64,000 bases of DNA from Heterostelium album PN500. Its lineage: Eukaryota > Evosea > Eumycetozoa > Acytosteliales > Acytosteliaceae. The notes under the pieces were generated by a model. That model searched no databases and had not been told where the DNA came from. It saw only the letters and a list, made by a program, of their open reading frames with translations. Positions 418 through 52,243 of this stretch are shown one piece after another (positions within the stretch are counted from its first letter, which is position 1; every line of letters begins with the position of its first letter). Made by a program: the position numbers and the translations under genes. The stretch is taken from positions 2,108,001 to 2,172,000 of the forward strand of contig NW_008805071.1 in NCBI RefSeq assembly GCF_000004825.1, in the 5' to 3' direction.

Positions 418-450
418 CAAAAAAAATTTATTGAAACTTTTTTTTGTTTC

Positions 451-3777: not shown

Positions 3778-4774
3778 TTATAAAAAAAAATTAAATAACT
3801 TAATCATATTATTTTTATAAAATATAATTTAGTAAACATTTTGTTATTACAAAAAATAAATCACATAATAATTAATATCATATGTGTGTAGTGGATTGAG
3901 ATGAGATGGATGGTCATATTGTTAGATGAAAGTGAAAACAAACTCATAAGATATTGTAATATTCTCTCAACAAAAAAAGATATCACATTTGTGGAACGCT
4001 CTCTCTGTCATTATGTATCATTCATCTTCCACATACCAAAAACAAATAAAGAACAACAAAAACAACAACATCTAATTCAGTAACAATAAACTCTTTTTTT
4101 TTTAAGAGTTACTTCTTAAAATATATATTTTACTGTGGTGGATAGTTTAATGATACAAAAAATGAAGAATATTGTTGAATATAATATTCTGTTTGTGATA
4201 ATGTTCGTAGTAGTAGTAGTGTAGTGTTGTGTTGTGTGATTTGTGTTTAGTGTTTTGTGCTTTGCTTAATTAATTTTGTATCATTTCCTTATTTGGTGGA
4301 ATATTACTCTATCATAAATCTTATATTTTAATTATGATAATGAAAAAATTTATCAAAAAAAAAAAAAAAAGAATAATAAAAACTATATTTGAACTTCAAA
4401 ATTAATAAAAACTTTAATTTTTTACCGTTATATGTTCCCACAATAAAAAATGAAATTAAAAAAATAACAAAAAAAAAACAATACCGCCAATTTTCAGATT
4501 TTTCAAATTTTTTTATTTTAATTCGGTTAATTAAATGATTCAATAATGATAATGATTCGATTGGTGTCAATCTTTTCTAGTTATTACAATTTTTTCCAGT
4601 AAATCAACAAATTTCACACACACATAACATACAATTACGTGTATATTTATATAAATAATCTAGATTTATTATCAATCATAAACATTTAGATCTATATACA
4701 AAAACAAAATCATTTTCTAAAGAAAATTTATATATCATTCATTTTTCATTTGATTAAACAAAGATAGCTTAAAG
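3778..4774. other. Intergenic between divergent genes
   Basis: About 1 kb separating the minus-strand membrane-protein gene from plus-strand thyX, so it should hold both promoters. It contains poly-A/T runs, a GTAGTAGTAGTAG / GTTGTGTTGTGTG tract near 4206-4240, and no coding sequence I can support. The small frame at 3901-4083 has no recognisable features and reads as chance. Confidence 0.6.
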
Positions 4775-5884
4775 ATGGACTCATTGGGTATCGATCAAAT
4801 TCAAATCAACAAAGTACCAGCCGATACTGAGTACTACGATGTCATGAACGGTAGTCATCGTTGGGAAGTAAAGGTACACGATCATGGAAAGTATGTACTT
4901 TATTTTCATCAGGTCTAAAAAAATAAAAATAACAAGAAACTAAACATAACTTATGATTATTATTAACAATAAAAAAAAAAGAGTTGCATTGGTTGATTCT
5001 ATGCCAAGACTTGCACCAGTTGGTCAAACTGCTGATTTCGCCATCGTTCAAGCCGCTCGTGTATCCTATGGTGCCGGTACCAAGAAAGTAACTGAAGACA
5101 AAGGTCTTATCCGTTATCTCTATAGACATCAACATACTTGTATGTAAACTAAACAAATATTAAAAATCAAAAGTTATTAATTATCTTTAATTTTATTAAT
5201 AATAATAATAATATAGCACCATTCGAGATGATTGAATTCAAATTCCATTGTGTGATGCCAGTTTTCATTGCTAGACAATGGATTAGACATAGAACAGCCA
5301 ATGTCAACGAGTACAGTGCCAGATACTCGGTTATGCCAGACAAGTTCTACCATCCATCGGCCGAAGACGTCAGAAAGCAATCGACTTCCAATCGTCAGGG
5401 TGGTGAGGATGCCACCGACACCAAGACCGCACAGGAGTTCCTCGACTATCTCGACCAGGTCGAAGCCAACTACAAGACCTACTCAGAGTTGCTCGACAAG
5501 GGTGTCTCTCGTGAGTTGGCACGTATCGGTTTGCCAGTCTCTGTGTACACCGAGTGGTACTGGAAGATCGACTTGCACAACCTCTTCCACTTCCTCCGTC
5601 TCAGAATGGATTCACACTCGCAAAAGGAGATTCGTGACTATGCCAACACCATCTTTGCTCTGATCAGACCGATTGTACCGGTTGCCTGTGAGGCATTCAT
5701 CGACTATGCTTTCGAGTCGATCAAACTCACACGTCTCGAGATCGAAGCAATCCGTTCCGGTAAGCCATTGAACACCGCCAACAAACGTGAGACCGAAGAG
5801 TGGGAAGCCAAACGTAAACAACTAGGATTACCAGAGCCAGTCAAAGTCGAACAAACACAACCATCATCAACTGAACAAGCATAA
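4775..5884 (+). CDS. thyX: Flavin-dependent thymidylate synthase (ThyX family)
   Basis: Converts dUMP to dTMP using FAD, NADPH and methylene-tetrahydrofolate. Three exons: 4775-4890, 4982-5139 and 5217-5884, giving 313 residues with all phases consistent. The diagnostic ThyX motif RHRX7S is seen as [11 protein letters not shown] in exon 3, next to ARYS. Other conserved blocks are [34 protein letters not shown] and [17 protein letters not shown]. The exon 1/2 acceptor was placed at 4981 because the alternative AG two bases later gives an immediate stop. Dictyostelids are known to rely on this enzyme (named thyA in D. discoideum), which is otherwise mostly bacterial. An AATAAA lies shortly after the stop. 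Exon 3 is clearly richer in G+C than the introns and flanks. Confidence 0.96.
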
Positions 5885-6784: not shown

Positions 6785-8688
6785 TTATTTGACTGCAACA
6801 GCACCGTGGAAGTATGTATACTTTCCTTTTCTCTTAAAGGCAGACCAAGTCTGCTTGGTGATAGAGTAGGTGTACTGGTTTTCTTCCTTACCTCCCAGCA
6901 GGAAGATTCTAAAATCATTATCGAAATAACCAAAAACCTAAATAATAATAAACATTAACTGTTAGTTTCATATTCTTAAAAAATATAAAAATAAAATAAA
7001 ACACATACCATTGCCAGACCAAACTTTCCTTCTTGCAACGGCGGGTTCGCCAGTTTCTCAATCGTGTTCGTAAATATTGAGAATTTACAAAATACATTGC
7101 ACGTGATGAAGTATATGAACTCTCGCTTGTCAAAGGTGCAAGCTTCGACACGTTCATTGCCTCCAAAGTTGAGTAGAATATTGGAGGTTGAATCTTTGGT
7201 GTTGTACGACTCTATGCTATTGACTAGAGTGTATGGTGCGGACGCCTCCTTGTGCGTTCCACCTACTGTGTAGATGATATCTTCGTGGAAGCAGCAGTAG
7301 GTGTAGTAACGTGCTTTTTTCAAGTGTCCAACTTGAATACATTTACCAGTCAAGATATCAAATTTGTCGATACGGTCCATGGTAATATTGTTCTGAATAC
7401 CACCGACAAGGTAAATGTATCTACCGTTGTCGTAGCAGCAGGCAAGTGAGGAACCACCTTTCGTTGGGATACTGTCGAGACAATCCCATTTTCTGGTGTT
7501 GATGTTGAAACGTTCGAATGTATTCAACGTGTCATTTCCACCGAAAATGAAAATGTGCTCGTTGGTGCACGCTACTGATGCAGACGAACAAGCACGTTTC
7601 ATTCTGGTGGGTTCGACAATTCCCCATCGGTCGTTTTTAAGGTCGCACACCTCGACCGTGGACAAATGCTGAGTCGCCTCCATACCGCAAAGCACATAGA
7701 TGTAGAAGATAGCGCAATCTTCTTTGTACTTTTTCATGTAACCACCGAGACTGGTAATTGCGGTTTCTTTTTGTGGACCTTCGCCTGTTGCCGGTGTGCC
7801 GTCGGGATTGGTAGTGGCGGTGGTCGTCTCTGTCATGGAGGGCGTCAGCTTCACCAGATTGTAGCCATCTTTAATCTCTGAAATTGATCTTGAAACCTTG
7901 GCTTTGTTGACAGTAAAGTCGTATGACACCTCGATTGGGTCGATTTTCATTTGCGCGAGCATGTTATTCACTTCCTTGTCCAATGTGTCTTGATCTTCCA
8001 GAATAAGTGCAATACTTCGGACTAGCTCTTCTGTATTCATTTTTGTTTGAGGTTTCTCAAAGATATCGTTATTTTTCAGCAGGTCGGCAGGCTTCTCGCA
8101 GTCGTCGGTTAGCAACACCAGCATCTCTTCGGTCTCCAAATCTTTCATGAACGTATATTGATTTTGCTTGATATTTTCGTACTTTGGATTCTCCAAAGTC
8201 TTTTCGGTGGTTCCGGTTACATCGTTGATCATTTCCAAACTCGGTTTAAACTCGCCACTGCCATTGCTCGACATCATCGATTCTTCGACCGCTTTGAAGA
8301 TGGTGTACTGTGACTTTAGCTGGGCGGTATACTTCTCGAGAATAGTTACCAATTGTTGCCTACTCTCCAGTACCGGCTTCGCCAATCTATGCTCTTCCAC
8401 TATCAGTTGCTCGTGATATGTCTTGAACAGTTTGTTAATATTTCTGGTCACTTCATCATGTGACTTTATCTTTTTGGCCAATTTCTGTGCTTTGTCAAAG
8501 TTAAATTCAAACGGAACATTTAACTTTTCAACCTGCTGTGAAGGTAAGTTGGGTGGTTTCACAAATGCATGGCCTCTGTGGACAGGTAATGTAATACAAT
8601 CACCACACACCAATATATTGCACTCCTCACACAGAAACTTAACCTTCTTCTGAGGATGAAATTGACATTTTTCTGCTGCTGCTGACAT
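6785..8688 (-). CDS. B-box zinc finger, coiled-coil and Kelch-repeat protein
   Basis: Two exons: 7009-8688 (560 codons) and 6937-6785 (50 codons and stop), 610 residues in all. If exon 1 is read through it ends in a hydrophobic nonsense tail (VCVLFYFYIF). Splicing at ATG|GTATGT (7008) to TTTAG|GTTTTTGG (6938) continues in phase 0 and adds FGYFDNDFRIFLLGGKEENQ, a typical Kelch strand with its GG pair. Order of domains: B-box (C8, H11, C20, C23, C28, C31, H37, H40), coiled coil about 60-140, an acidic linker, then at least five Kelch-like repeats from about residue 320 (FIFGGNDT, IYLVGGIQNN, IYTVGGTHKE). B-box/Kelch proteins act as scaffolds or ubiquitin-ligase parts, but no RING or BTB is visible here, so the role is open. 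It is one parent of the chimera at 451-1933. Confidence 0.85.
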
Positions 8689-23916: not shown

Positions 23917-26900
23917 CTACATGTCGAAGAGAAGTTTACTTTTTTGTGATTGAAGATCTATACTGTTGTTTTGATTATTGTTGCTTTGATCATCATCACT
24001 GTCGTCCATAACTGATGTCGATTGAGGGGCAAAGCTAAAAACATGTTGTTTACCACCTCCACTATTAATTGAGTGATTATTATTATTACTATTACTTTCT
24101 TCGTCAGAGTCGTAAAGTCCTGGGAATCTTGATCCCTGACCGTCGTCTTCAATTTCAAACTTGGGGAGCATCTTGTATCTGGCGACTCCCGATCTATAAC
24201 GATGACGGATGTACCATGCAGCCAAACCAATGACAAGAGCGGCGGCAACTAAACCGGCGATAACCTCGAGTGCAACGATTGCTGATGATCCATTCTTCTT
24301 ACAGTCACCTCCGCTGTAGCCTGGCGCACAGTTCTGGCAGTTCTCACCTTCGTAGTTCGATGGACAGACACAGATACCTTGGGTATGATCGCACGATCCC
24401 TTACCACAACCACCTTCGCAGTTAAAGTTTGGTGTGCAGTATGGGAAGTTCTTGTAACCGACGTTACAGGTCTGACAACGGTTACCAGAGTATGCCTTGT
24501 TGCAGTGACAGATGGCATTACCAGTGTCGTCAGCAGAGCATGCTCCGATTGGAGTACAGTTGGTACCGGCAGTTCCTGGCAAGCAACCGCAAATGTCGTA
24601 CGATGTGCATGGATTCTTGATACAGATGACTTGTCCAGCCTTATTCTTCTCCATGTAACCTTGGTCACAAATGTTACAGGTAGTTCCGACGTAACCGAGC
24701 TTGCATTGACAGGATGGATCGACGAATGCACCGTTTCCAGAGCAGGTTGTGTCGATGGTTGAATATTGGTGGAGTGGTGGGAGGACGGTGTTGGCACCAG
24801 AGTCATCAAAGAGATAACCTGGCATCAGTCCGAGGAGGTAGTTCTTTGAGGAACCAAAAGCAGAACTAAAGGTGAGAGTCCATGTGAGGGCGTCGTCCGT
24901 TGTGCAGACAACATTGGTTGGGTAGAAAGTTGGTGTAATTTGGTTGTCACTCAAATAGAATGCCTTCTTGAGCAAGGAGGTACCGTTGTTGCAACCAATC
25001 AATGCCTTGTTCGAGTTGTACAATGGTTCAGAGAATGTGATCGACAATGGCAATGCTTTGTTTGGTGACAAATTGACGGCACTTGCTGGCACGACCGATC
25101 CAATGTAGACGGTCTTGACGTCGAGGATAGTCAACGAGTAGAGGAATGGGAAACAGAGATCACCATAGATGGAAGCATTGACAATTTGTTGTGCCAATGG
25201 TGGATGGTTGATAACCAACACGTAGTCTCCTGGTCTCAAACGTGGATTGATAAGAGTCTGGGTGAGTGTGGTGAGACCGGTGGTGTATTGCGATGACCAA
25301 TCACCAACTCCGATTTGACTGAGCGATGTGACATTGTTCTTATCGGTAACCTTTTGGTAGATAAAGAGGAGGAAGTTGCTGGCATCAGAGTAGTAACTGA
25401 ACATGGCTTCGACGTGCGAGTAACGAGTGATTGAGAAACTGACATTGTAACGGAATCCAGAGGCATATGTATTTCTTGCGAGATAGTCACCAGAGAAGAA
25501 GGAATTGACATACTCGGTGGCCGATCCGTATTTGTCTGGCACGATGACAGACGATGGCATTGGGTTGGCAGTTTGTGGACAAGCGAGATCACCATAGATA
25601 CGAGCCATTGGTTTAATAACGACTTGCATCTCGTACGATGGACACATGTCACGGACACGACCATTGTATTGCATGTTCAAAGTGTATGGTATTCCTCCAT
25701 CGGTACGATCGATTGGACCGGCCATGAACAAAGCGGAACGTTGATTGTTGTTACGACTACCAGTGTTGTAGACAATCGATTGCATGTTTTGGTTGTTGTC
25801 ATAGACATCGTAGTCAATGGTGACAACGGTATTCTCCTTGGTGTAGACGTTGATGAGTGATTGCTCCTTGAGTAACATGGCAATGTTGAGGGTGGAACGA
25901 GTCTGTGGAATGAGGAAAGTGTTACCAAACATGTTGAGAGTTCCAGAACCATCGATTGGACCACCGAATGGCTTGCTACCACCGTCTAAGCTACTCAAAT
26001 CCCATGGAGTCAAGTCAAAGAGTGAACAATCGGTGTGGGTGCTGCTGGAGGCATCGTTGATAATCAAAGTGAGATGGTATGGAGTGCAATGAGCCTTGAA
26101 AGCACCGGATGGGAACGAAGAAACAGTCGAGATGAGCAAGGTGTAGTCACCTGGTTGAATCATTGCATTGATCTCAACGACGTTACGGTTGCTCTTACCA
26201 TAAATGACTTGGCTTGGATTGTCGTTTCTCTGGAATTCCATATTGAGATCGGCCAACAAGAATTGGAATCCGATTTGAGCGTAGAATAAGCTTGGTACTT
26301 GAATGGAGAATGGAATGCTAATGATGTTTCCGTCCTTGGCCATGTCTTCAGCAGAGATAGTTTGAATGTCGTTGAACATGTAAGAGTTGGTGTTGGATAG
26401 GACTGGTGCTGGTGAGAGTGTGTTACAATCGACAGAGTAGGGGATGGAATCAATCTCTTTGGCGACTTGATCGAATGGTTGAATGACGAGTTCAAGATCG
26501 ACGGCAGTGGCATTGTTGAATTTTGTAAGGGCTGGTTGTCCAATGGCAAGAATGTACTGAGTTCCAGCTCCGGATGGAGTGAGAACGGCTGTCATAGCAC
26601 CGTAACTTGATTGTTGAGTGGTAAGGGTGATGGCTGGTACCATAACAGTGTTATAGGTATCGGATTCATCCACTGGAAGAATAGATGCTTGTACTCTTAC
26701 CAATGACTTGGTAGTAAGAGTAAAGGTAAGTTGATTATGACTTGGAACACCGTCGTACATTTGATATTCTCCTTGGAGATGAATACGGTTGTTGTATTTG
26801 AGAAGTGCATAGGTATCGAGAGTTGGTGGTAAGATATGGAGGAATCCATCGGCTTGATCGATAGAACCGGCTTGTTCAATCAAGATCTCAAAGTTAAAGA

Positions 26901-29900
26901 AGGAACAACCCATGATTGATTTCAACGATTGGTAGGATTCATAGATGTAGAGAGTGTATTGTCCTGGAGCTAAACCGACGATATCCAACATGTTACGATT
27001 GGGTCTGACGACACCATAGGTAGTCTTTTGTCCGGCAACCTTTGGAACCAATTTCAATGAGAGATCACCAGTCAAGAAATCGTATCCGACTTGAGCGTGG
27101 AAGTTAGAGGTCTTGGTGACAGTAAATGTCATGGCGTGAGATGCAAGACCAGAGGTTTCTTGTTGGTAGAACAAGTTGTTGTTGGAATCGATAGAGTTGT
27201 AGTAGAAGGACGCTGGGAGAGTAGATGGAAGATCAGGTGGCCAGAAATCTTGACCAGCTCCTGGACAAACATCATCCAATGGAGTGGCTGGAGCAATTGC
27301 AATTTCCATGTTAAAGTTATTGCAAGTTGGGACATTCTTACCCCAACGCCAGTATTGAATGACAAACAAGTATGGATAGTTCTTTTGGAGGCTGGTAATG
27401 AACGATTCCTCAGAGTTGATACCGTTGCTACCGGAAACAACAACTTGGTTGGTAGATGGATCGACAATCTTGATATCGACATCAACGAGATTTGGTGAGG
27501 TGTAGACTCTCATGATAGAGGGAACTGGTACTTGGAATGGAATCTCTGATTTCGAGAACATGTTACCGGTGTATGGAACGACAAAGTTGCTTGATTCATA
27601 GTGCATTCTACCTTCCACACCGAGGAAACGGATCGAATTCAAAGAGAGTGGGACGTGTTCACCTGGACAGAGTTGAGCCATTGCCAATGGGAGAACATTG
27701 AGCTCATATTCGAATGGAACACAATCGAGACCGGTCACAGTACGTGGAGTTGAGATACGCTCGATCTTGATGATGTAGGTACCTGGGTCGAGGTTGACAT
27801 TGATCGAGTTGTAGTTGTAGTCGTGGAAACCGCTGACAAACAACTTGGATACACCCTTGGTGGTTCTGTAGAGATTGACACGGAGGTCACCACGAAGGAA
27901 GTCACTGGCGACAGCTGTGTAGAGATTGAGTATTTGTGTGGTGGTCAAAGAGTACATAGCAATCACTTGTTTGGTTCCGAAAGAGTAGTAGGTACCCTTG
28001 GTCGTTGTAGCATTCTCAAAGATGTATGGAATACGAATGTTGATTTGTGGGAGAACGTCTTGGTTGTTCGATGGACAGTTTGGTGGGTATGTTGGAATCA
28101 AGTTGGTAGCTGGCTCGATGGCAATCTCAAGATTCATGAGTGGACAGAATTTGGTGGAAGTGGCAACGTAGTCAGTGTCAATCTCCAACTGGTAGTTACC
28201 GGCAACAACCTTTTCAAAGATGGTGCTGGCACTTTGGATATTGATCTTTTGGTCGAGGTTGTAGAGAGTGATATTGATGGTTGCCTTGTCTTGCTCAGCA
28301 ACGATACGGATTACACTGTCGTATCTGAGGGTGAAGTTCATGGTGTTGTGTTGAGTGTTCATGAGATAGGTGTCTTGGATGTGGAGGTAGTCATTGTTGA
28401 TAAATTCTGATGAGTCGAGACTGGCTGGGAGAATATCACCGTCGCAGTTGAAGAACGACTCGTCGTCGTAGACAAAGTTGATATCAATGAACAAGTCAAA
28501 GAGTGCACACTGCATGTTGTACATTTGATCTGGAGCATAGACAAACAATGTGTAGTTTCCTGGTTGAAGAGTGGCGTGAAGAAGATTACGATTGACTTCA
28601 TTGTCACCGAATACACAACCTGTGATACCGGTTTGGTCACCTCCCTTGCATTTTGGATCACCGAATCCTGTTTGCAAAACGAGTGAGAGATCACCTTGGA
28701 GGAATTGGTATCCCATGATAGCATCAAAGATGGCAACTTGACCGGGCTTTGCGGACTTGACTGTGAATGTAGTGTTCCAGAGGTAGACTGCATCCTTGCT
28801 AGTGGTGTATGGGATAGAGTAGAGAGTTCCTGGGTCAGAGTAGGTGTAGTCATCGGTGACAACCGATGGGATGGTGTTGGCGGGTGGCAAGCTTGCTTTT
28901 CCACATGGCCAGTTGGTCATATCGTTGGCGAGGTTGGCAGTGGTATCAATCGAAAGTTCAAGGTTGAAAGTTTCACAGTCCAACTTGATGTTCTTGTCCC
29001 ACAAGTAATACTTGAATTGGAGAACGTATGGACCGGCTTCCAATGTCTTGAAGATTACTTCTTCGTGTCCAAAGGTGATGGAACGATCGATCAATTCCAA
29101 TGGCTTACCGTCATCACCGACACTGTAGAGCCACAAGTCGATATCGGCACGATGTGGTTCAGTGTAGACACGCAATACCGATTGTTCTTTCAATAAGAAG
29201 AGAGTGCTGTGTGATCCAGTGTTGATGTCCAAGTAGTAGTTGTCTTGAATGTGTACACGGTTGTTAAAGGCGAGATACTCGGTGGAGTTGAGGTCGACTG
29301 GGAGGAGTGGTGCGATACAAAGAGTACCACGATCGTCGTCACTCATTGTACAGTTTGGATAACCGGTGTATCCATAGTCACAGGAGCTACACATTGAACC
29401 GATGTCGGTGGTAGTGTAACCGGTGGTACATTGACACTCTGGATAACCTTCGTCGGCATTACATCTTCCGTGTCCGTTACAGTCAGCGTTGTTTGGAGCG
29501 CATGGAACGTTGACGGCACAGCTATTTCCAACACCGTGGTAACCGGCCTTACACTTGGAACAGTCTTTTCCGGTCCATGGATCGTTACACTGACAGACAA
29601 AGTCACCCTTTGGAGTGGCCAAGCAGTCACCGTGGTTCGAACATTGACAGACAAACATATTGTAGAGATGTACAGCGGTGGTGTTCTCGTCTGAGAACTT
29701 CTCATTGTCGGTAGTTACAAAGTCAGAGGCGTCAACTGACAACTTCCAGGCGGACGATGCATTGACTGGGAAGAAACTGACAACAAGAGTGGTCTTGTCG
29801 TTACGCTTCAAGGCGGCACTGCTTGGTGTGATAGTGAGACCGGTGGTAGTGGTCGATGTCAACAGCACAGTACGCTTGCTGGTGATGTAATCCAACAAAG

Positions 29901-32900
29901 ATTGAGTACCATTGTAAAAGACTTGCTCAGAGAAACGAACGTTTACAGTGATTGGAAGATTTGGATTCAAGTTCCAACCGCCTGGTGGCAAGACACCCAA
30001 GACTCTTGGTGGCATTCCGGTAGCGAACGATTGTCCGACAAGGTGGAAACTGAAGAAATGACAGGCATTGGTGATGTTGAATGAATTGATCTTCATATTC
30101 TCTGTGATATCGAGGAAGTAGTTACCGGTTGTCAAATTGTATTGAATGATGTTGAGGAAGTTGTAGGCAGTGTCGGTGGTACGTGGCAATGTGTTGGTAC
30201 CGGTTGAGAGCTGAGTGGTCGAACCATCTTGGTTTCTCGAGTACAAGATCATATCCATGTCGTTGTCGAGGAAGTCGAATCCGACTTCGGCGTAGATCAT
30301 GGTGGTCGATGGAACTTCGAGAGACATACGATAACGGAAGATGTCGTTCTTGACGTTACCGTTGATACGAGCGGAACTAAAGAGATAACCGTCGGAACCA
30401 ATGTTAACATCCTTTCCATATTGGAACTCGATGGTGTCTGGTGGAACTTGGTCGACTTCGTTTGGCATTGGCGATGGACACAACATGTCGTCTTGCAAGT
30501 GCTTGACGGTTTCGATTGCCCATTCAAAGTGGAGAGTGTTACAGGTCTGCTTGTTGTTGATTCTCATAAAGTTGACGTCGAGGGTGTATGGTGTGGCTTG
30601 TGGTTCGATACGCCAGAGGGTCGATTCGACGTTGGAGCTAGAGTAGGACGAGTAGATGAGTGATGCTGGATCACTGGCGTTCTTGTAGACAAAGAAGTCG
30701 ATATCGTTGTTTGGCGATGTCTCGGCGTAGAGACGCATGTATACCGGTTCAGTTGGAACCATGAAAGCAATACGGTTGTGTTTGTACATTGGATCCTTGG
30801 AGAGGAAGAAACGTGAACCTCTAAAGACAATCTCACCGGCTGCGTTTTGTGGACCACCGTATGGAAGACTTCCACCCTTGGTGCTGAAGAGATCCACTGG
30901 GAGGAGGTTGGTGGTATCACATGGAGTGACATCTGGAGTGGTGGTGTTCAAGTAGTAGCTGAGTTGGTAGCTGGAACAAACGAGACCGAGGATTGGATTC
31001 TTTGCTCCGGACTTGTCGTACACTGTCAATTGGTAGGTACCGGCTGCGAGAAGCTCACTAAACAATGCTTGTCCACCTTGGTAGAGTGGATAGAGAGTCT
31101 TTACGACTGGCTTACCATTGATGGTGGTTGTCGAGTTGAGTTTCATCATCATCGATGTCACCAAATCGTTGTATTGCAACGAAACATTGAGATAGGCAGC
31201 ACCAGTAATGCTAAAGGTCATTGGCATTGGTTGGAGTGGGAATTGGGTAGCACGATAGAACACTTGTGAGTAGTTTTGGTTTCCAACGATTTGTGTTGGA
31301 AGTGTAGCAGTGTTGGGGCAAGCGGTAGTGATCGATGGAATAGCGAGGAGATTGTCGACCTTCTCAATGGAGATGAAAGCAGTGATGTAGGTGCAGTCCT
31401 CAACTTGTGGAAGTGGTCCATTTTGTCCGTAGTATGTAAACTTGATGATGTAGTTGCCGGCTGCCAATTGGTCGTAGATGAGCTCCTCACCGCTACCACG
31501 AGCGTAGTCGATTGGAGTCTTACCACCTTCGACTGTGAGAGTAAAGTCGACGTCTACAGTTGGGTGGAATGGTACGTAGATACGGAGAAGCGATGGCTTG
31601 GCGAGGGTGAACTTGACAATGTCGTTACCGGCCAACACGTCAACGAGAACCTTTTGTTGGAATGACAATCCACCGTCGGTAAGAGCCGACATGTATCCGA
31701 TCGAGTTGAAGGTTTGTGGGAAGAGCAAACTGTCACAAACGATTGTGTCTTGGTTGACTTGAGTGTCGTCGACCATCTGAATCGCAACGTCCAATGTAAA
31801 GTCGACACAGTTGTTCAAGACAACAGCAGAGTTGGCGTTGGTTGCCATTGGCTCGTAGACAGTGAGAATGTAGTCACCCGGTGTCAAAGCTCTCGGGAGG
31901 ATATCGGCACGGTTGTAACCGAGCGACGAGTAAGTGATGACGGTTTGGTCGGATTTCTTCAAGGCGATGGCCATGTCGTTCCAGACAAAGTCGTAGTTCA
32001 AGATGGCACGGAACAAGGCAGTGTTTCCATTCTTGGTGGTTGGCACGCTGAATGCAATGTCCTGTGAGAATGTCTGGTTGACTTGGGTGAATCTGAAGGT
32101 ACCGTTGACACGGACTGGCTCCAATGATGCGTCGGGGATAAAGTTGGCTGGTGGCAAGATGCTGGTGCACTTGTCCTTTGGATTCTCAGTGGTTGGGGTG
32201 ATGGAGAGTGCAGCTTGGTAGGTGTAGCAAGCTTGGTTGTCAGTGACGAATGGCCAGTGGTAGAAAGAGGTTTGCAAACGATATTGTTTGTCTGGCTGTA
32301 CGACGTACTCGAGTGATTCCTCACCGTTGAAGTTGTTACTCCAGGCGACCTTTGTCTTTCCTTCGTAGAGGGTGATGTCAATATCGATGGAGGCATCCTC
32401 AACGAATGCACGGAAGATCGATGGGATGGTGACGGTGAATGCTGTGTTTTGTGAGGCGGTAATCAAGGTGATGGGTGGCACCAAGAACTCATCGGTCAAA
32501 TGGATCGATGTTGAGGTGAGCAGATAACCTGGGGTGTTCAAATTAGTGGGGAATGGGAGATTGCCAAAGCATGGGTCGCTCTTGTAGGTGAGTGAGACCT
32601 TCAAGGAGTAGAGGATGCATGGTGGCAGGAAAGTTGGATTCTTTGAGGTGAGTCCGGTCATGATGGCGAGCGTGTAGGTACCGTTCTCGAGTTGCACAAA
32701 CAGGTGGTGAGAGTTACGCGAGTGGTCACCCAAGATCAAGGTTGGCTCGACGTTGTCGTCATCTGGATCGGGTACGGAAACAATGGCGATACGCATATCA
32801 CCGAGGATAAAGTTGGAATCCATCTCGACATACAAATAGCTGGTTTTTGAGACGGTGAATGTCTGGTTGGTAACGGTGGCCTGTGAGGATTGACCGTTGA

Positions 32901-34825
32901 ACATGAATTGGTAGGTTACTGGTGACGCTGTATTGAGGTTGTACACCTTGTTGGCATCGATGGCATCTTGAATTCCAGAGAGATCCGGTGAGATATTAGT
33001 GGTGATACCGTCGCAGTAGTTAAGCTCAGTGTAGTCTGTGACTGGAGCAATGGCAAACTCCAAACTAAAAGTATCACAAAAGACATCGATATTCTTTCCA
33101 AAGAATAATACCTTGAAATTGTAAGTACCTGCTTCCAATAAACCTGTAATCTCTTCTTCTCCACCCCATTTAAATGATGACATGACAACTATTGATTTTA
33201 TAAATGAAAAATGTAAATTAATATGACATTTTTCTTCATAAAAAAAAACACTTACTTCCTGTGGAATTTGAGATTTGAACATCAATATCTACTCTATGTG
33301 ATGGGATATATACTCTAGCATAACTTTGTTGTTTAATTGTAAACTAATATATATATACAAAAAGAAAGTTAGTTATGTTATGTTATGTTTGATATTGGAT
33401 GTTTGTTTGTTTGTTTGATAGTTACGCTAACATTGTCGGAACCAGTTACCAAGTCTAAGAAGACATCTTCATCATAATAGAGATATCCTAGATCGTCGAT
33501 ATAACCTGGTGCGTTGAATGAATCTGGAAGGGTTTGAGCGTTACAGTTCAAGATGGTTTCGGTTTCGTGTGCCGATTCAATGTCGATTTGCAATGAGAAT
33601 GGTGTGCATGGTGGCATGATCGATGCATCCTTCTCTTGAGTTTGATCGTACAAGTAGAGAATGTAGTCACCCGGTGTGACAACAGTCTTCAAAGTCGAGT
33701 GATCCTTTGTTGTGTGAACACCAATAGTACAGTTTCCTGCTTTAATACATGCGAATGATGTCGGTGCTGGTGTCTCTGCATCTTGAATCAATAAACTAAA
33801 TAAGTGAGTGAGTTTAAAAAGTTAGTTAACTTGCTTGTTTCTTCATCATCATCATCATCATTGTTATTCTCTTCATTTCTCAGTTCAGTCTTACCCTAAT
33901 GAACCACCAGTTAAAAAGTGGAATCCCATTGTTATTTCGATACCCCATTTGTCGGTGGAGATGACACCCTTTGGCAAGGTGAATGGGTATTGTTGGAAGA
34001 AGGTAATATTGTTTCTTCCTGGTGCGATGGTGTCGATGACATTAAACAATGTACCAGCTTCGTCAACATCGGAATCATATCTGAATGTTCCCTTATCGAA
34101 ATTGAATTGAGGATTTGGGAATGTTGATTTTGCTGGACAATTTAAATTTCCTGTTCTACTTTTAATAGTATCCTAAAAATAACGAAAACAACAACAATAA
34201 CAGTTAATAACTTTGACAATCAACCATTTGTAAATCAATCAGAATACATACGGTTGGTGTAATTGCAGCTTCAATTGTTAAAGTTGGACAATCTAAATTC
34301 TTTGCTTTGATAACAGAGAAGAAGAGTAATCTGACTTTATAATCACCTGCTGGTAGATCTGCGTAGATAACTTCATCTGCACCTGGTGTTGCATCTGCTG
34401 AATGCTAGTAGTAATATGAATAATAATAATGATAATATCATTGTTAGATTTATTTGTTATTTATAAATAGATTTGTATGTATGTATGTATGTTGGTGTTA
34501 TACTTACGGTAATTGGTGCTTTATTGGCACCACTGTTTGGGTATAACCAAATGTCGACGTCGACAACGTGTGGAGCGACGTAGAATCTAAAGGCAGATGG
34601 AGTATCGAGTGTGAAGTACATGTCTTTGGTGAATGATTTGAAATCATAGTAAAATGTATTTAAGAAATGCATCTCCTGGTTGAAATCCAGGTAGGTGATC
34701 GAATTAAAGTTGAGAGGCAGCGGTTGGTATGGACATGACTCGTCGGATGTCAATGTTTGTGATCTATTGGCAGATACTAATACCGCTAGAATCAAAAACA
34801 AGGTAACGAACATTCCTCTCACCAT
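23917..34825 (-). CDS. Giant type I membrane protein with A-B modules, Ig-like and EGF blocks
   Basis: Six exons: 34825-34508, 34404-34252, 34172-33895, 33795-33426, 33343-33256 and 33188-23917. The phases agree and sum to 3,492 residues. The start at 34825 (MVRGMFVTLFLILAVLVSA) gives a good signal peptide; the earlier Met at 34861 does not. The extracellular part is made of ~135-residue beta-rich modules in two alternating types. A has YLxFNxRxH, RVYxxPHxxDIDxxLY, EE..L.AG.Y.L.F.Y and C..F.LEIAI. B has CP..LPP, GYDFLxGDLSLxL, NRN.L...L.PGxYTLxIY and C.FF.F.I. There are about ten A-B pairs. After pair 5 (residues ~1455-1685) and pair 10 (~3100-3365) come an Ig-like, SbsA/Big_5-type domain (ITVNVRFSEQV, LSITFSEPLY) and Cys-rich EGF repeats. 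A membrane helix (about 3369-3393, VIAGLVAAALVIGLAAWYI) and a ~95-residue acidic, Asn/Ser-rich tail follow. It is probably a cell-surface adhesion or recognition protein; no ligand is known. Confidence 0.9.
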
Positions 34826-37800
34826 TTTGAAATCTGTTGACGATGAGGGTTTATTGTTCATAAACCTGTGTAGTTTTTTTTAAAAAATTATAATTATTAT
34901 TTATTAATATTAAATTATATTACAATTTTATAATATTATTGTTTGTTTGTTGTTGTTGTTGTTGCTTATTATTATTAATATTTCAAGTCAAACATCAATA
35001 ACTATCTAAATCTATCTGTTAATCTTATCTAAATCTATCTATCTATTATTATTATTCTAACTCTATATTATCTATCTATCTATCTAACAATCTTATTTTA
35101 TCAAAGTCGACTTTGATGAATGAAAATATGATATTACAGGACAAACAAACAAACAAACAGGTTCAGGTCGATGTTAATGATAATTTTTTTAAAAATAAAA
35201 AAAATTTTAAAAATTAAAAAATTATTAAGGTGTGAATTGACTAACGAATTGACAAAGTAAAGCGTGTGAATTGTCTTATTTTTGTTTACAACAAACACAA
35301 CACGAAAACAAAGAAAAACAGGGAATGAATGAAAGGAAAGATAAAAGGAAACAGAGTACTGGTAATATCAACAGTACAGTAAAGTTCTTCGTTCTTTTGT
35401 TTTAATTAATTTTTTTGTACTGACTTTATAAGTGTGTTTGTTGGATTTCAATTATTATTATTATTCGGTGGAAATGTTCGACCTCTGACTTTGAGTGGAA
35501 CAAGCAAGATCTATTTTTTTTTTAATAATAATGAGAGCTTTGTACTTTATAAAAGTGTGGTGGTGTGTGGGGAGGTGTTTATTTCGAAAATGGATACCCT
35601 CTTTAAAAAAAAATTTTTTTTTTTTTTTTTTTTTAGGTTTTCAAGATATGCAAGGTGGTTGGTTGTTTATAACAATAATAATTATAAAAATACAATCTCT
35701 CGATTTTAGAGTTACAAATATGATAATTAAAAAGAGTTGTTGATTGAGAATCGATATTTTTTTTTTTTTTTGAAATGAATTCAATTGATTGGGCTATGAT
35801 ATGATTAATTAAAATTAAGAGATCCAATATCCTGTAATATTTATTACTCTCTCTCTCTCACTGGTCAATATTAATTAACCAACTGAATCAAAATTAAAAC
35901 AAATAATAATTATATTTATATATTTATAGACTCTGTATCATTATTTTAATTCCCTGGTATTGAAATTTCCAAATAGTTTTCATCCAAACTTTAAAAAAAA
36001 AATCAAAATATTTCGAAAACTGACTTTTAATTCTGTGTATCAGTCTGTTTTTTTTTTTTATCGATTTTTGCTGGTTTTGTGTTATATTAAGTCTATCTAA
36101 TCTACTATACTGTTTTGATTTGATGTTTGTTTGATTGAACTGATTGTTTTTATTGTTGGTTGTTATTTTATAGGTATCTAAATTCTTACCTCATTGTATT
36201 TATAAAAGTAGTATATAAATACTATAATTATAATATCTAGCTAGAAAATAATAATTATTAATGATAAATATATACTACTAAATATATAATATAATGATAT
36301 ATCTTTATTTATTACAATAAAGTACAATGAAAATAATGAAAAGTAAATAGAGAATTGAAAAAACCTATCTAATTATTTTTAAAGTACTATTATTATTATT
36401 TCAATAAAATAACTGAAAAAAAAAAAAAAAAAAAAAAGAATATTTGAATTGAAGTTTTTGTGAGTGTTGGTTTTAAGGGGGTGGTGAGGACTTTGGTCTT
36501 GCATGTTAGATGCACTGCAGTTTGTGAAGAGCCCGCCTATGAGTGTGAGGTGCACCACCACATGAAAGAGCTCAAAAAACAAAAATAAAAAACAATTTCA
36601 AAAACAAAAAAATTAAAAATAAAAATAATTTTTTCAAAAACAGAGTTTTGACCAAAGACTTTGTATGGCATGTCGTTTTTTTCGTTAGAATTTTCTTCAC
36701 CCACCCAATTATCAATTGATTCACACAACACAGTTTACCATCCACAATAATTGAAGTTAACTGATTAACATAAAACTCATTTTATTTTGTTTAGACTCTC
36801 ATTATGCTCAGATTTTTTTCAAAAGTCTTGCTTGATATTAAAAACGATATTTATTTTAAATATTTAAGTGGTCTATGATATCATTTATTTGCAACGTTTT
36901 ATATGTTCACGAAATTAATGGACTAACTAACCATTCACAAATAAAGAGATTTTAAATCATTAATTACTATTCATATGAGAGATATATTAATTAAATAGAT
37001 AATAGTATTTTAATTTCAATTTTGGATAAACATGATTTACAAATATCTATTTTTATTTTATTCTACGGCTACCAGATACTAGATATTTTTGAAAAAGAGA
37101 ATGCTTCAATTATAAATGGGCCAAATACTTTATCATCTGGGGTGGGTGTAACAGTAAACTTAACGAGAAAGAAGTAAGCAATTAATTGGTGATTGCCCAA
37201 TCAACAAAATTCCGGTTACCAACAAAAAGTTTGCAAAAAAAATATCTAAATATCTAATTTATGTAGTTGATTGAATTAAAGTAGTATTATTATTACTTTT
37301 TTATTTAATTACTTTATTTTTTAGCTGGATAAGAACATCCAAACAAGAGATTTTAGCTTAAATATATGATATTTTTAGATAAATAAACATTAATACAATA
37401 TGAATATATATAAAATCAATATATTTATAAAGAGAGACAAAAACAAACATTATTTTAAAAAGTTAACTTTTCTATAATTTGTATTATTATTATTATTTAT
37501 GTTTGTAATAAGTCTTTGTTCTTTAATTTTTATGCTTCTTTTTCTTCATGAAAACGGGCATTTATTTTTGAATGAATTTTTTTTAAAATTTAAATTTTCA
37601 TTGTTTTGGGAGTGTGTTTAGTGATCAGCAGAAACTCCACTCGAAACTAAGTAATTTTTCATAATTTATATTGTTGATCAATAATATCACACCTAACACA
37701 ATCAGTATCAATTCAATTTAAGATATAATATTATATATTTAATCGTAGATTAGCAATAGATCTGATTTACTAGTGATTTTATTTATTGAAAATCTAAATT

Positions 37801-37884: not shown

Positions 37885-39959
37885 ATGTTATCGACTTCAT
37901 CAACAACCTTAAAGAATGTTTGTAAATTAGTATCAAGTAACAATGGTAATAGATCGTTTCCGATAAAATCAAAATCAAATCAATCATTCAATCAATCAAT
38001 AAATCGATAATTCGATAACTCGATAACTCGATCTATCAGTAAATCTATCAACAATATGCTATTATAGCAATATTATTTATAATAATATTGTTATAATATA
38101 TAATGGATTACATTATACAATAGTATTATAATGAACATAATAATATTAGATGTTATAATAGTAATAGAAACTACATGTAAATTCATGAATCTACATAATA
38201 ATTGTTGTTTTATGAAAAAGTGTTCATATAGATTATTATTATTATTGACTCTGATGATAGATATATCAATAATATAATTTAATATAAAAGTAAAAGTAAG
38301 AAATATAATACTAATTGTTGTTTATTTTTTAGTAGTAGTTGGTAGTGCATTGGTTAATTATACAACAGCAGCAGCAGGTGGACCAACTCCACAACAACAA
38401 GTTCAAAATGCATCAATTAAAACATATGGTGGATTGAAAGATCAAGATCGTATCTTTACAAATCTCTATGGTGAGCACGACGTCTATTTGAAAGGTGCTG
38501 AGAAAAGAGTAAGTTAAAAAATCAATCAAATTAGAATTAAAAAGAAATATGAAATTAATAAATTGATTGATTATTATTATATTTTTTTTAGGGAGATTGG
38601 TATAGAACAAAAGATATTATAGGTAAAGGTAAAGATTGGATTTTGAAAGAGATGATGGCATCTGGTCTTAGAGGTCGTGGTGGTGCAGGTTTCCCATCGG
38701 GTTTGAAGTGGTCTTTTATGCCAAAGCAATCGACTGGTCGTCCACAATACCTGGTGATCAACGCTGACGAGGGTGAGCCTGGTACCTGTAAAGATCGTGA
38801 GATCATGCGTCACGACCCACACAAGTTGATCGAGGGTTGTTTGATTGCTGGTTTCGCCATGCGTGCATGCGCCGCCTATATCTATATCCGTGGTGAGTTC
38901 CATCACGAAGCCAAGGTCCTCGAGAAGGCCATCGACGAGGCCTACAAGGCCGGCTACCTCGGGGCCAACGCCTGTGGAACTGGCTACCACTTTGATGTCT
39001 ACGTGCATCGTGGTGCCGGTGCCTACATCTGTGGTGAGGAGACCGCGCTGATCGAGTCGCTCGAGGGCAAACAAGGAAAGCCACGTTTAAAGCCACCCTT
39101 CCCAGCGATGTCCGGTCTCTACGGTTGTCCAACCACCGTCACCAACGTCGAGACAGTCGCCGTTGCACCGACCATCTTGAGACGTGGTGGTTCGTGGTTC
39201 GCCGGTTTCGGTCGTCCAAAGAACAGCGGAACCAAGCTCTACTGTATCTCAGGTCACGTCAACAACCCATGCACCGTCGAGGAGGAAATGTCGATTCCAT
39301 TGCGTGAGTTGATCGACAAGCACTGCGGTGGTGTCATCGGAGGTTGGGACAACTTGCTCGGTGTCATTCCAGGTGGAAGTTCCGTCCCTGTCATTCCAAA
39401 GGACATCTGTGACGACGTTCTCATGGATTTCGACGATTTGAGACGTGTTCGTTCCGGTCTTGGAACTGCCGCCGTCATCGTCATGGACAAGTCGACCGAC
39501 ATTATCGCTGCTATCGCACGTCTCTCGAAATTCTATAAGCACGAATCGTGTGGACAATGTTCACCATGTCGTGAAGGTACCGGTTGGCTATGGGATATCA
39601 CCGAACGTCTCGTAACTGGTGACGCTAAGCTCGATGAAGTAGATATGCTTGAAGAAATCTCACGTCAAATTGAAGGTAACATTATCACTTAATATAAGAT
39701 TTATATGAATTTTGAATAATTATTTTCTGACACATTCTCATTATAGGTCACACCATTTGTGCACTCGGAGATGCTGCTGCTTGGCCTGTACAGGTAATTA
39801 TCAATCAAAAAACCACCATAACTTTTCAAATTTTCATTTTTTCATAATATTAACTTTTTTTTTTTAAACATATTACAGGGTTTGATTAGACATTATCGTC
39901 CAGAGATTGAACAACGTATCCAAGACTTCCAAGCAAATAAGAAACAATCACCATTCTAA
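37885..39959 (+). CDS. ndufv1: NADH dehydrogenase flavoprotein 1 (complex I 51 kDa subunit)
   Basis: Binds NADH, FMN and one 4Fe-4S cluster at the tip of the mitochondrial complex I arm. Five exons: 37885-37945, 38333-38508, 38592-39675, 39747-39793 and 39879-39959; 482 residues with consistent phases. The first ~40 residues ([20 protein letters not shown], then [13 protein letters not shown]) look like a mitochondrial presequence. Seen motifs: FMN/NADH glycine loop [47 protein letters not shown], and the cluster-binding [14 protein letters not shown], with the fourth Cys in [14 protein letters not shown] (exon 4). Intron 1 is long for this window (387 bp). The central exon is much richer in G+C than the rest, as expected for a highly expressed gene. 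Confidence 0.97.
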
Positions 39960-47812: not shown

Positions 47813-49528
47813 ATGAATAGTTGTTCAAATCATAATAATAGAATATTTGAATTCATTTGTTATGATTGCAATGTTTTGATGTGTTCTGCATGTGTACCAC
47901 AACATAGACTTCATTTATTCGATCATATCGACGGAATAAAATCGGAAATTAACAATCATATCAATAATAATAACAATGATAGTAATAGCAATAACAATAT
48001 CAATAATAATAGCAACATACCATCATTTCTCGATATTCAGTCAAAGATTAAAATAACATTCGATTCACTAAAGTCAGCAGTCAAAGAATATCAACAACTA
48101 CAACAAACAGAAGATGAGATATCGAGTAGATTCAAAGAGCTACATGAATTCCTTGTTGTTGAAGAACACAAACTAAAGAAACCGATCATCGATAACAAAC
48201 AACAATTGGAACAACACGTAGAAAGTCAAATCACAGTCATGAAATCATTGAATTTAATGAATCATCAATTAAACCAATTCATTGCTGACTCTAATACTGA
48301 TAATATTCAACCAACAACAACAACAGCAACAACAACAACATCATCATCATCAGCAGCAACAGACACAACAGATAGTTACCAAACATCTACAATAATAACA
48401 TCAATATCACAATGTTCTGACCACAAAGAATTTATTCAAAACAATAACAATACATTGTTCAGTTTTAATGATCATCTTCATAATCATTATTCTAACAAGA
48501 CTAAAAAAGATGACCATTCATTATTAAACCTTATACTTGAACACAACAATACATTGAAATCGAACAATCATATTGATGTAAAACACAACAAACTACAACA
48601 ATACCAACTGATTATCAAAGATCAACAACTACATCAAATCAAAAATCAACTTCAATCCACTTTTAAACTTGTAATACAACAACATCAACCACGACAACAA
48701 CTACAGGATTCATATATTTTATCAACCGATGTCGATGGTAAAATATCAGTTATCGATATAACAGATCAGAATAATATTTATTTCGTACAACAAGGATATG
48801 CCACTATTGATGCAAAGCTTGGTTTTTACTCTTCTGTTGTTGTTGGTAACCATTTCTATAGATTTGGAGATGAAGCGAAAGCTCGGAAGTATTTCAGATT
48901 TTCAATCCACAACCAAATATATAATGAAATTGAAATGAATGGTATAGAGGAGTGCGGTTATGTGTCGGTTTGTTATGATGGTAAAGATCATATCTATTTA
49001 TTGGACGGTTGCATGAAACCTAAACTACATATCTACAGATTCAACATCAACAATTTAACATTCGAGGAATATTCAACTGCCGAAAATACAAATCCACATT
49101 ACCACCATTTAACTTTTCACCGAAACAACTGCATTTATAGCTATATACCAGAGGCCAACAAGATTATCAAATTCGATATTAGCACCAAAGTAACAGTTGA
49201 ATTACCAATTGAATTGCCCAATAAACAACAAAAAGCAGCATGTACCGATGGCAATGGTAGTTTGTTTGTTCTAACTAATACCGGATTTCACCAGATCAAT
49301 ATCGAAACCCACGAATTTAAACAATTGGATAAATCAATAGCTAATATGAATATAAACAACCATAATTTGATTTACCATCAAGCAAACGATCAAAAGAGAT
49401 ATATCTACTCACTTCAAGGAAAGAGTCATAACTATAGATATTCATTTGAACACAATCAATGGAAATCAATACTGGAAAATGACCAAGCTAATAGATTATA
49501 TTGTGGACATCATCTATTTCATAAATAA
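47813..49528 (+). CDS. B-box zinc finger protein, array copy A
   Basis: A single exon of 571 codons. Zinc ligands C4, H7, C16, C19, C24, C27, H31 and H34/H38 form a B-box. An Asn-rich spacer is followed by a coiled coil (about 85-150, QQTEDEISSRFKELHEFLVV, EHKLKKPIIDNKQQLEQH), a Thr/Ser-rich stretch, and a C-terminal half (from about 300) of repeated beta-strand units (SYILSTDVDGKISVIDIT, YDGKDHIYLLDG, IIKFDISTKVTVELP, ATCTDGNGSLFVLTN-like) that suggest a propeller. Such B-box plus propeller proteins are a large dictyostelid family; the cellular role is unknown. It ends NRLYCGHHLFHK. It is intact and close to copy B (50531-52243), so both may be used. Confidence 0.85.
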   Translation: MNSCSNHNNRIFEFICYDCNVLMCSACVPQHRLHLFDHIDGIKSEINNHINNNNNDSNSNNNINNNSNIPSFLDIQSKIKITFDSLKSAVKEYQQLQQTEDEISSRFKELHEFLVVEEHKLKKPIIDNKQQLEQHVESQITVMKSLNLMNHQLNQFIADSNTDNIQPTTTTATTTTSSSSAATDTTDSYQTSTIITSISQCSDHKEFIQNNNNTLFSFNDHLHNHYSNKTKKDDHSLLNLILEHNNTLKSNNHIDVKHNKLQQYQLIIKDQQLHQIKNQLQSTFKLVIQQHQPRQQLQDSYILSTDVDGKISVIDITDQNNIYFVQQGYATIDAKLGFYSSVVVGNHFYRFGDEAKARKYFRFSIHNQIYNEIEMNGIEECGYVSVCYDGKDHIYLLDGCMKPKLHIYRFNINNLTFEEYSTAENTNPHYHHLTFHRNNCIYSYIPEANKIIKFDISTKVTVELPIELPNKQQKAACTDGNGSLFVLTNTGFHQINIETHEFKQLDKSIANMNINNHNLIYHQANDQKRYIYSLQGKSHNYRYSFEHNQWKSILENDQANRLYCGHHLFHK

Positions 49529-50530: not shown

Positions 50531-52243
50531 ATGAATAGTTGTTCAAATCATAATAAATTCTTCGAATTAATATGCAATGATTGCAATGTTTTGATGTGTT
50601 CTGCATGTGCACCACAACACAAACTTCATTCATTCGAGCATATCGATGCAATAAAATCAGAAATAAATAATCATAACAATATCAATAATAATAGCAACAT
50701 ACCATCATTTCTCGATATTCAGTCAAAGATTAAAATAACATTCGATTCACTAAAGTCAGCAGTCAAAGAATATGAACAATTACAACAAACAGAAGATGAG
50801 ATATCGAGTAGATTCAAAGAGCTACATGAATTCCTTGTTGTTGAAGAACACAAACTAAAGAAACCGATCATCGACAACAAACAACAATTGCAACAATACG
50901 TAGAAAGTCAAATCACAGTCATGAAATCATTGAATTTAATGAATCATCAATTAAACCAATTCATTGCTGACTCTGATACTGATAATATTCAACCAAATCT
51001 ACCAACAACAGCAACAACAGCGACATCTTTATCATCATCATCATTATCACCAGATACAACGGAAAGTTATCAAACTTCGACAATAATAAAATCAATATCA
51101 CAATGTTCTGACCACAAAGAATTTATTCAAAACAATAACAATACATTGTTCGATTTGACTTATCATCTTCAGAATTTTTCTGATAAAACTAAAAAAGATG
51201 ACTATTCTTTATTAAACCTTATTGTCGAGCACAACAATAAATTGAAATCGAACAATCACAATAATGTAAAACCCAACCAACTACAAAAATATCAACTAAT
51301 TCCCAATGATCAACAACTTCATCTAATCAAAAATCAACTTCAATCCACTTTCAAACTTGCATTCCAACTACCACAGTCATGTATTTTATCAACCGATGTC
51401 AATGGTAAAATATCAGTCATAGATATAACAGATCAGAATAATATACATTTTATACAAAAAGACATTTCCACCAACGGTTCAAAGATTACATATTTCTCTT
51501 GTGTTGTTGTTGGTAACCATTTCTATAAATTTGGAAGTGGAGTTAGCACTAAAAATGTTCGAAAATATTTCAGATATTCAATCGACAACCAAACATATGA
51601 TGAAATTGAAATGAAAGGGATCGAAGAATTAAATTTGGTGTCAGTTTGTTATGATGGTAAAGATCATATCTATTTTTTGGATGTTCACAGCAAAACAATA
51701 GTTAATATCTACAGGTTCAATATCAACAATTCAACATTTGAAAAATATTCAACTGCCTATATATCAAGTTCAACTTTCCATCATTTAGCTTTCCACTACA
51801 ACAACTGCATTTATAGTTATATTCCAGCAGATAAAAAGATTATTAAATTCGATATAAACATCAGAGCAACAGTTGAATTACCAGTTGAATTGCCAATTTT
51901 CCAACAAAAAGCAACATGTACCGATGGCAAAGGTAATTTATTTGTTCTAACAAATACCGGATTTCACCAGATCAATATTGAAACCAATGAATTTAAACAA
52001 TTGGATAACTCGACAGCTAATATGAATATAAACACCCATAATTTGATTTACCATCAAGGAAATGATCAAAAGAGATATATCTACTCACTTCAAGGAAAGA
52101 GTCAAAATTATAGATATTCATTTGAACACAATCTATGGGAATCAATACTGTACGATGACCAAGCTGGTAGATTATATTTCACTTCCAGAAAGTCGTACCC
52201 CACTTATTTCAGTTTTTACAAATTTCGGAAAAATAAAAAATGA
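50531..52243 (+). CDS. B-box zinc finger protein, array copy B with replaced C-terminus
   Basis: 570 codons in a single exon, very similar to copy A throughout: B-box (C4, H7, C15, C18, C23, C26, H30, H33/H37), coiled coil and C-terminal propeller-like repeats. The last shared residues are DDQAGRLY (copy A: NDQANRLY). After that, copy A has CGHHLFHK and stops, while this copy runs on as FTSRKSYPTYFSFYKFRKNKK in unrelated sequence. The lost end is found again about 1.29 kb further on (53465-53560), so DNA was inserted inside the last codons. The change costs only the last ~8 residues, so the protein may still work. Transcript end and stability may differ from copy A. Confidence 0.85.
   Translation: MNSCSNHNKFFELICNDCNVLMCSACAPQHKLHSFEHIDAIKSEINNHNNINNNSNIPSFLDIQSKIKITFDSLKSAVKEYEQLQQTEDEISSRFKELHEFLVVEEHKLKKPIIDNKQQLQQYVESQITVMKSLNLMNHQLNQFIADSDTDNIQPNLPTTATTATSLSSSSLSPDTTESYQTSTIIKSISQCSDHKEFIQNNNNTLFDLTYHLQNFSDKTKKDDYSLLNLIVEHNNKLKSNNHNNVKPNQLQKYQLIPNDQQLHLIKNQLQSTFKLAFQLPQSCILSTDVNGKISVIDITDQNNIHFIQKDISTNGSKITYFSCVVVGNHFYKFGSGVSTKNVRKYFRYSIDNQTYDEIEMKGIEELNLVSVCYDGKDHIYFLDVHSKTIVNIYRFNINNSTFEKYSTAYISSSTFHHLAFHYNNCIYSYIPADKKIIKFDINIRATVELPVELPIFQQKATCTDGKGNLFVLTNTGFHQINIETNEFKQLDNSTANMNINTHNLIYHQGNDQKRYIYSLQGKSQNYRYSFEHNLWESILYDDQAGRLYFTSRKSYPTYFSFYKFRKNKK

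Follow-up and report, generated by a model that had tools for sequence, protein, structure and literature searches.

A giant putative type I membrane protein of Heterostelium album built from ten alternating pairs of PPC-like modules

The 64,000-nucleotide stretch of Heterostelium album PN500 analysed here (contig NW_008805071.1 of assembly GCF_000004825.1, positions 2,108,001 to 2,172,000; hereafter the window, within which nucleotide positions are counted) carries on its reverse strand a gene, 34825..23917, for a protein of 3,491 amino acids in which two module types, A and B, strictly alternate, ten of each. By profile comparison, the two types are diverged variants of a single domain that carries a cysteine pair, and this predicted domain is like PPC (Pfam PF04151), a domain of bacterial proteins. 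The explanation that we favour, with a probability of roughly 0.5, is a giant type I membrane protein, single-copy as searched, in which a stalk of PPC-like A-B pairs, doubled from a five-pair unit, would serve a long-reach adhesion or matrix receptor. The adhesion role is one that we infer from sequence.

Two module classes of one domain

In an all-against-all Smith-Waterman comparison of the modules, scored as z against shuffled copies, the mean z is 11.3 for A-A, 6.7 for B-B and 1.2 for A-B, and z exceeds 4 in 32/45, 29/45 and 3/100 comparisons, respectively. In a joint tree built from all 20 modules, A and B fall on either side of a split of 100/98. Because of this z separation and this split, the two classes that an initial annotation of the window had read from the sequence alone stand as two clusters, and its ten A-B pairs are all recovered in the module alignment. 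The classes are nevertheless not unrelated, since an alignment of the A profile with the B profile (hhalign) gives 95.9% probability over 90 columns (E 6e-9 for that one comparison). A profile made from A modules alone also weakly detects some B positions, at best with 16 bits. The motifs quoted in the annotation are valid as consensus, with departures in single modules: A9 lacks DID..LY, and B1, B2, B3, B4, B7 and B10 deviate from GYDFL.GDLSL. Its statement that A-B is not a named domain pair agrees with the searches of Pfam and NCBIfam, in which no family is over cut-off for A or B.

A trait absent from that earlier reading, and new here, is the cysteine pair. In 19 of the 20 modules (counting A6, whose first cysteine, C1692, lies just beyond its drawn boundary), a single cysteine lies close to each end, at equivalent places; A9 is without any cysteine. 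The presence of a cysteine at both ends of nearly every module suggests one disulfide closing each domain. B1 and B6, which stand five pairs apart, alone among the B modules share a further cysteine pair in one loop.

Resemblance to the bacterial PPC domain

The A consensus matches PF04151 at E 1.3e-4 with 23.2 bits, under the cut-off of 25.9, a score to be read with the fact that consensus sequences score above real ones in profile searches; no Pfam family is matched by the A consensus in reverse or by three shuffled versions of it. Searched against PDB at E up to 10, a nine-module B profile matches seven chains, of which five carry the name collagenase (best E 0.0019), and a six-module core-B profile finds six chains, all named collagenase (best E 0.012), with 0 matches for the reversed core-B profile. 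The alignment falls on the terminal YG..N.N...L.PG.Y.L..Y stretch, and the matched chains are, we assume, collagen-binding domains. The core-A profile reaches two subtilisin-like proteases at E ~2 over 84 collinear columns, which is not significant, the columns matched in both being presumably their PPC domain; a ribosomal protein found by the same profile at E 0.25 is taken as chance. The exon-6 part of the protein matches no NCBIfam family, and a phmmer search of PDB with the whole protein gives nothing better than E 0.18.

Several results weigh against the assignment to PPC. No A or B module reaches the PF04151 cut-off. Among single A modules PPC appears in one of ten, at E 0.13, behind CBM_X2 at E 0.012 in another module. 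In nine single B modules it is absent, the best of seven scattered families being DUF5444 at E 0.011 (the intron-split B1 is covered instead by the Pfam scan of the N-terminal 450 residues). The B consensus matches no Pfam family, its reversed form matching two weak chance families (E 0.05 and 0.073), and in NCBIfam it finds DVUA0089 alone, at E 0.029 and under cut-off. The B-collagenase alignment spans 31-44 profile columns, at the module end only. Judged by name and length, the collagenase chains seem to repeat one or two domains, and they are counted as one or two matches accordingly. The all-A profile finds a single PDB chain, an uncharacterized protein at E 0.54, and a PF04151 search of the organism's own genome gives no match in this gene.

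Given likeness by profile but scores under cut-off, the modules are called PPC-like here, and not members of PF04151. In the search against PPC and beta-sandwich families that the initial annotation proposed as a check, the A consensus and the B profile gave matches that fall short of family membership. In M9B collagenases it is the PPC domains that bind collagen (PMC6168687, in excerpt). The modules share with the bacterial domain a similar closing motif, L.PG.Y.L..Y, in the collagenase alignment. They differ from it in exceeding the 70-position Pfam model in length, in having one cysteine pair per module and in standing in twenty copies on a single-anchor eukaryotic protein. It is tentatively suggested, at rather less than even odds, that A and B may be an undescribed eukaryotic family that came from the bacterial PPC domain, with one disulfide and two obligatory alternating forms, amplified twenty-fold into a giant surface receptor.

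Gene model and layout of the protein

The gene runs from an ATG at 34825 to a stop that ends at 23917, in six exons with a spliced open frame of 10,476 bases, of which the last exon alone provides 9,272. The five short introns lie near the 5' end and are all GT..AG (106, 79, 99, 82 and 67 bases). Splice sites were picked by reading frame and GT..AG, not from transcript data; the donor of the first intron is GTATAA because GTAAGT, five bases upstream, breaks the frame. The initial annotation had the coordinates right and gave 3,492 residues by counting the stop. An ATCT simple repeat array lies at 35010-35086, ~200 bases upstream of the start codon.

From its N terminus the protein runs through a hydrophobic stretch and ten A-B pairs, of which the fifth and the tenth are each followed by an Ig-like domain and an EGF block, to one transmembrane helix and a tail. 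The features are as follows.

34825-34504, 34397-34252, 34172-33895, 33795-33426, 33343-33256, 33188-23917 (-): whole gene, exons; spliced frame of 3,491 aa
34739..34825 (-): putative signal peptide region, residues 1-29, from hydropathy only (N-terminal hydrophobic 19-mers, Kyte-Doolittle 2.27)
30031..34738 (-): pairs A1-B1 to A5-B5, residues 30-1454, from module alignment and boundaries
33558-34169 (-): B1, with extra loop cysteine pair (cysteine map) and an intron inside
30499..30924 (-): A5, special start GGSLPYGGP; best partner A10, Smith-Waterman z about 19-22
29656..30030 (-): Ig-like domain I1, residues 1455-1579; matches I2 with Smith-Waterman z 5.6, 30% identity over 79
29317..29655 (-): EGF block E1, residues 1580-1692; PF00008, E 1.1e-7, 32.5 bits, over cut-off
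25123..29316 (-): pairs A6-B6 to A10-B10, residues 1693-3090, from module alignment and boundaries
28459..28941 (-): B6, with extra loop cysteine pair (cysteine map)
25597..26037 (-): A10, special start GGSKPFGGP, from module comparison and trees
24748..25122 (-): Ig-like domain I2, residues 3091-3215; PF19078 Big_12, E 0.019, under cut-off
24289..24747 (-): EGF block E2, residues 3216-3368; PF00053 EGF_laminin, E 5.4e-12, 46.1 bits, over cut-off
23920..24288 (-): predicted transmembrane helix (19-mers starting at residues 3367-3378, hydropathy 2.64) and cytoplasmic tail

C1692, drawn inside the E1 boundary, is a residue of A6 and in the alignment takes the place of the first A-module cysteine. 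The halves measure 1,662 (residues 30-1691) and 1,677 residues (1692-3368), close to the 1,670 given by the initial annotation, whose single membrane anchor is matched by the one helix found by hydropathy and whose Ig-like domain and EGF block do follow both pair 5 and pair 10. The second Ig-like/EGF cassette adjoins the membrane, and the tail (~98 residues) is short, acidic, Asn-rich and without NPxY. A Pfam scan of the protein (exon-6 part of 3,089 aa and N-terminal 450 aa, E up to 10) returns EGF-type families only, with EGF_laminin over cut-off. The EGF blocks belong to known families, E1 to PF00008 and E2 to PF00053. The Ig-like domains are not placed among the bacterial Ig-like (Big) families: I2 scores 15.6 bits against a cut-off of 27 for Big_12, and I1 matches no Pfam family at E up to 10. 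Enrichment in N-glycosylation sequons was considered and rejected, with 35 sequons in the ectodomain and a mean of 39 in shuffles.

Origin of the two halves

The initial annotation read the protein as a tandem duplication of a super-unit of five pairs, Ig-like domain and EGF block. The off-diagonal that it predicted near 1,670 residues is present, the leading diagonal between half 1 and half 2 having an offset of 1,661 (1,731 columns, 23% identity, E 1.6e-97). Weaker half-to-half diagonals at offsets of 1,359 (E 1.2e-44) and 2,211 (E 3.4e-17) mean that other registers align too. Both special starts are where the annotation placed them, and A5 and A10 are reciprocal best matches. Among A modules a shift of five has the top mean z (17.3, next 12.6), and after hub correction, which removes general similarity, it keeps z 6.9 against at most 1.8 for the others; among B modules its lead is marginal, 1.7 to the 1.6 of shift three. 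The cassette copies match (I1-I2 z 5.6, E1-E2 z 7.2) and, like the extra cysteines of B1 and B6 and the special starts of A5 and A10, agree with the five-pair register.

The register was also compared by tree likelihood, with five cross-half pairs forced together in all 120 pairings on one alignment (LG+G4). The pairing 1-6, 2-7, 3-8, 4-9, 5-10 ranks 1/120 for A, by 0.006 log units, and 1/120 for the joined A+B pairs, by 0.37 log units. Against the free tree it is not rejected for A (approximately unbiased (AU) test p 0.074) or for the pairs (0.167). For B it ranks 45/120 and is rejected (AU p 0.022), which weighs against a five-pair doubling. With 5-10 held fixed it ranks 1 (A), 1 (pairs) and 13 (B) of 24; by mean identity it ranks 8/120 for A and 66/120 for B, and by mean z 2/120 and 25/120, respectively. 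The tree groupings in agreement with the register are A5+A10, with 92/89 when A modules are taken alone and 95/91 in the joint tree, and P5+P10 with 95/90, where P denotes a joined pair. Groupings that contradict it are A7+A9 (95/94, in the joint tree only), B7+B10 (91/86) and P2+P4 (82/79). P8 stands beside P2+P4 at 81/89, and most remaining forks do not resolve. A5+A10, P5+P10 and B7+B10 are flagged by the tree program as long-branch joins, unsafe to read.

It may instead be that the halves arose by repeated duplication of single pairs or small blocks, only the pair-Ig-EGF cassette being copied as a block. This has a little less than an even chance. It would account for the off-register B modules, for the contrary groupings A7+A9, B7+B10 and P2+P4, and for B3-B6 as the strongest match among B modules. 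It fits poorly with the first rank of the five-pair register for A and for pairs and with an extra cysteine pair in B1 and B6 only, and several of the contrary joins involve long branches flagged as unsafe. An ancient super-unit duplication is likely the better reading of these sequences, unproven as it is; the inner pairs have diverged too far to bear it out. The repeats have probably also exchanged sequence at a later time. The five-pair claim of the initial annotation is therefore kept in part, carried by A, by the joined pairs and by the marks shared between pairs 1 and 6 and between pairs 5 and 10, and opposed by the B ranking and the contrary groupings.

Relatives, codon usage and neighbouring genes

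The organism's own genome (32.9 Mb, 39 contigs) was searched with three long slices of the protein and a joint A+B consensus. Their matches fall in this gene in 4/4, 2/2, 7/8 and 12/12 cases, with no paralogue found, and the sole match outside it is the EGF region of a Sib-like frame on contig C14. A1, B1 and A2 lie outside the long slices and were covered through the consensus only. Since queries were single sequences, exons were read separately and the best candidates were scored, distant paralogues could be missed. The Sib-like frame (so called by eye; reverse strand, 321-5426 of the C14 piece, 1,701 residues) shows repeats that look like EGF, a stretch that looks like von Willebrand A, a single helix and, in its tail, two NPLY motifs. 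The PF04151 search of this genome gives two matches, both under cut-off. One is a 3,667-residue open frame (C30:174431-185431) with repeated SdrD/Cna_B-looking domains, colossin-like by eye; the other is an open frame that looks IPT/E-set-like by eye. No A or B module is seen in either, and profiles of the two types score 3.7 bits there at best. Further afield, pairs 6-8 find no relative in bacterial and archaeal genomes and viral contigs, nor does the A consensus in plasmids. Among the matches listed in a literature search on dictyostelid PPC-like domains, giant proteins and EGF surface proteins, titles and abstract openings name no such protein; the gene may already sit in databases under a generic EGF name.

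In dictyostelids, a bias towards C-ending codons at NNY sites accompanies high expression. The fraction of such codons is 0.64 in this gene, 0.65 in a gene for a NuoF-type complex I 51-kDa subunit and 0.65 in the colossin-like frame, and it is 0.31-0.53 in nine other frames of the window and 0.37 in the Sib-like frame. From a bias like that of NuoF, and from this link to expression, the protein is probably abundant, which is to say made in quantity. Within the last exon, third-position GC is 0.576 in the first half (29317-33186) and 0.505 in the second half plus tail (23920-29316).

The NuoF-type gene lies at 38643-39692 of the window, with an open-frame GC of 0.53. Neighbouring B-box proteins at 47813-49528 and 50531-52243 have 74% mutual identity, a tandem duplication, and the two have a distant relative in a B-box/Kelch protein at 6976-8688.

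Comparison with known dictyostelid surface proteins

Dictyostelids have an established class of surface proteins in which EGF or Ig-like domains are repeated (PMC3188802, in excerpt), and 25 proteins with EGF-like domains are given for Polysphondylium pallidum (PMC4931340, in excerpt). The protein belongs to this broad class, its new elements being the paired A-B domain and the likely link to PPC. Colossin A, a structural protein of the slug made of repeats of the bacterial Cna_B domain, is likewise a dictyostelid protein in which a bacterial-type domain occurs many times (PMC3188802, in excerpt), and the colossin-like frame of this genome has the same codon bias. The repeats themselves differ, as those of colossin are Cna_B (same excerpt), and A and B have no Cna_B or SdrD_B match in Pfam at E up to 10.

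Sib proteins (similar to integrin beta) are of type I with a single transmembrane helix (PMC9197732, in excerpt). The present protein shares this topology, and EGF-looking repeats recur, by eye, in the Sib-like frame of this genome. It is not a Sib protein by its domains, having no von Willebrand A domain in the Pfam scan and no NPxY in its tail, and, since the tail is in this respect unlike that of the Sib-like frame, linkage to talin in the manner of Sib is not expected. Tgr (TIGER) proteins are transmembrane proteins with a repeated Ig-like ectodomain and form a family of 37 in D. discoideum (PMC3188802, in excerpt). The present protein is also transmembrane with Ig-like domains in its ectodomain. 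It has no IPT/TIG match at E up to 10, a negative limited by the HMMER filters, which discard most matches above E ~0.1, and no paralogue was found here, against the 37 members of Tgr.

Proposed function and alternatives

In the explanation that we favour, A and B would be diverged forms of one PPC-like beta-sandwich, as the profiles suggest, with a disulfide joining both ends of each domain. A PPC-like domain would have duplicated to give the A-B pair, which would then have increased to five copies; this five-pair unit, together with its Ig/EGF cassette, would have doubled long ago, followed by exchange among repeats. The repeated domains would make up a long stalk that offers numerous weak binding faces for carbohydrate, matrix, prey or a partner cell. 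The EGF cassettes would act as a hinge and a membrane-proximal spacer, with the stalk held off the cell, and the protein could then work as a long-reach adhesion or matrix receptor.

A narrower role, as a feeding or substrate-adhesion receptor that captures bacteria or soil matrix, as reported for Sib and SadA in Dictyostelium, is possible but doubtful. Its precedents are SadA, with three EGF-like repeats, and SibA, both of which serve substrate adhesion (PMC9197732, in excerpt), and the collagen binding of PPC-type domains in bacterial collagenases (PMC6168687, in excerpt). It is set back by a tail without NPxY in a genome whose Sib-like frame has two NPLY motifs. We give a slightly lower chance, about one in four, to a purely structural, abundant coat or matrix element with no defined binding partner, as proposed for colossin. 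Repeated cysteine-pair domains suit a mechanical element and codon usage equals that of the colossin-like frame (NNY-C 0.64 against 0.65), but the clear transmembrane helix and tail make for a protein anchored to the cell unless cleaved. The initial annotation had offered adhesion or kin recognition. A receptor for kin or allorecognition would suit a large surface protein of an aggregating amoeba, and allorecognition in Dictyostelium does use the surface proteins TgrB1 and TgrC1 (PMC4404348, in excerpt). With no paralogue in the organism's own genome at the depth searched and no IPT/TIG match in the Pfam scan, this part of the proposal goes unsupported and is very improbable.

Implications

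If the A and B modules are indeed a disulfide-paired, PPC-like domain, the gene becomes classifiable and its relatives could be found with a proper profile. A bacterial-domain origin of another large amoebal surface protein would also become testable. Should derivation from the bacterial PPC domain hold true, the protein would join colossin as a second giant surface or matrix protein that an amoeba has made from a bacterial-type domain.

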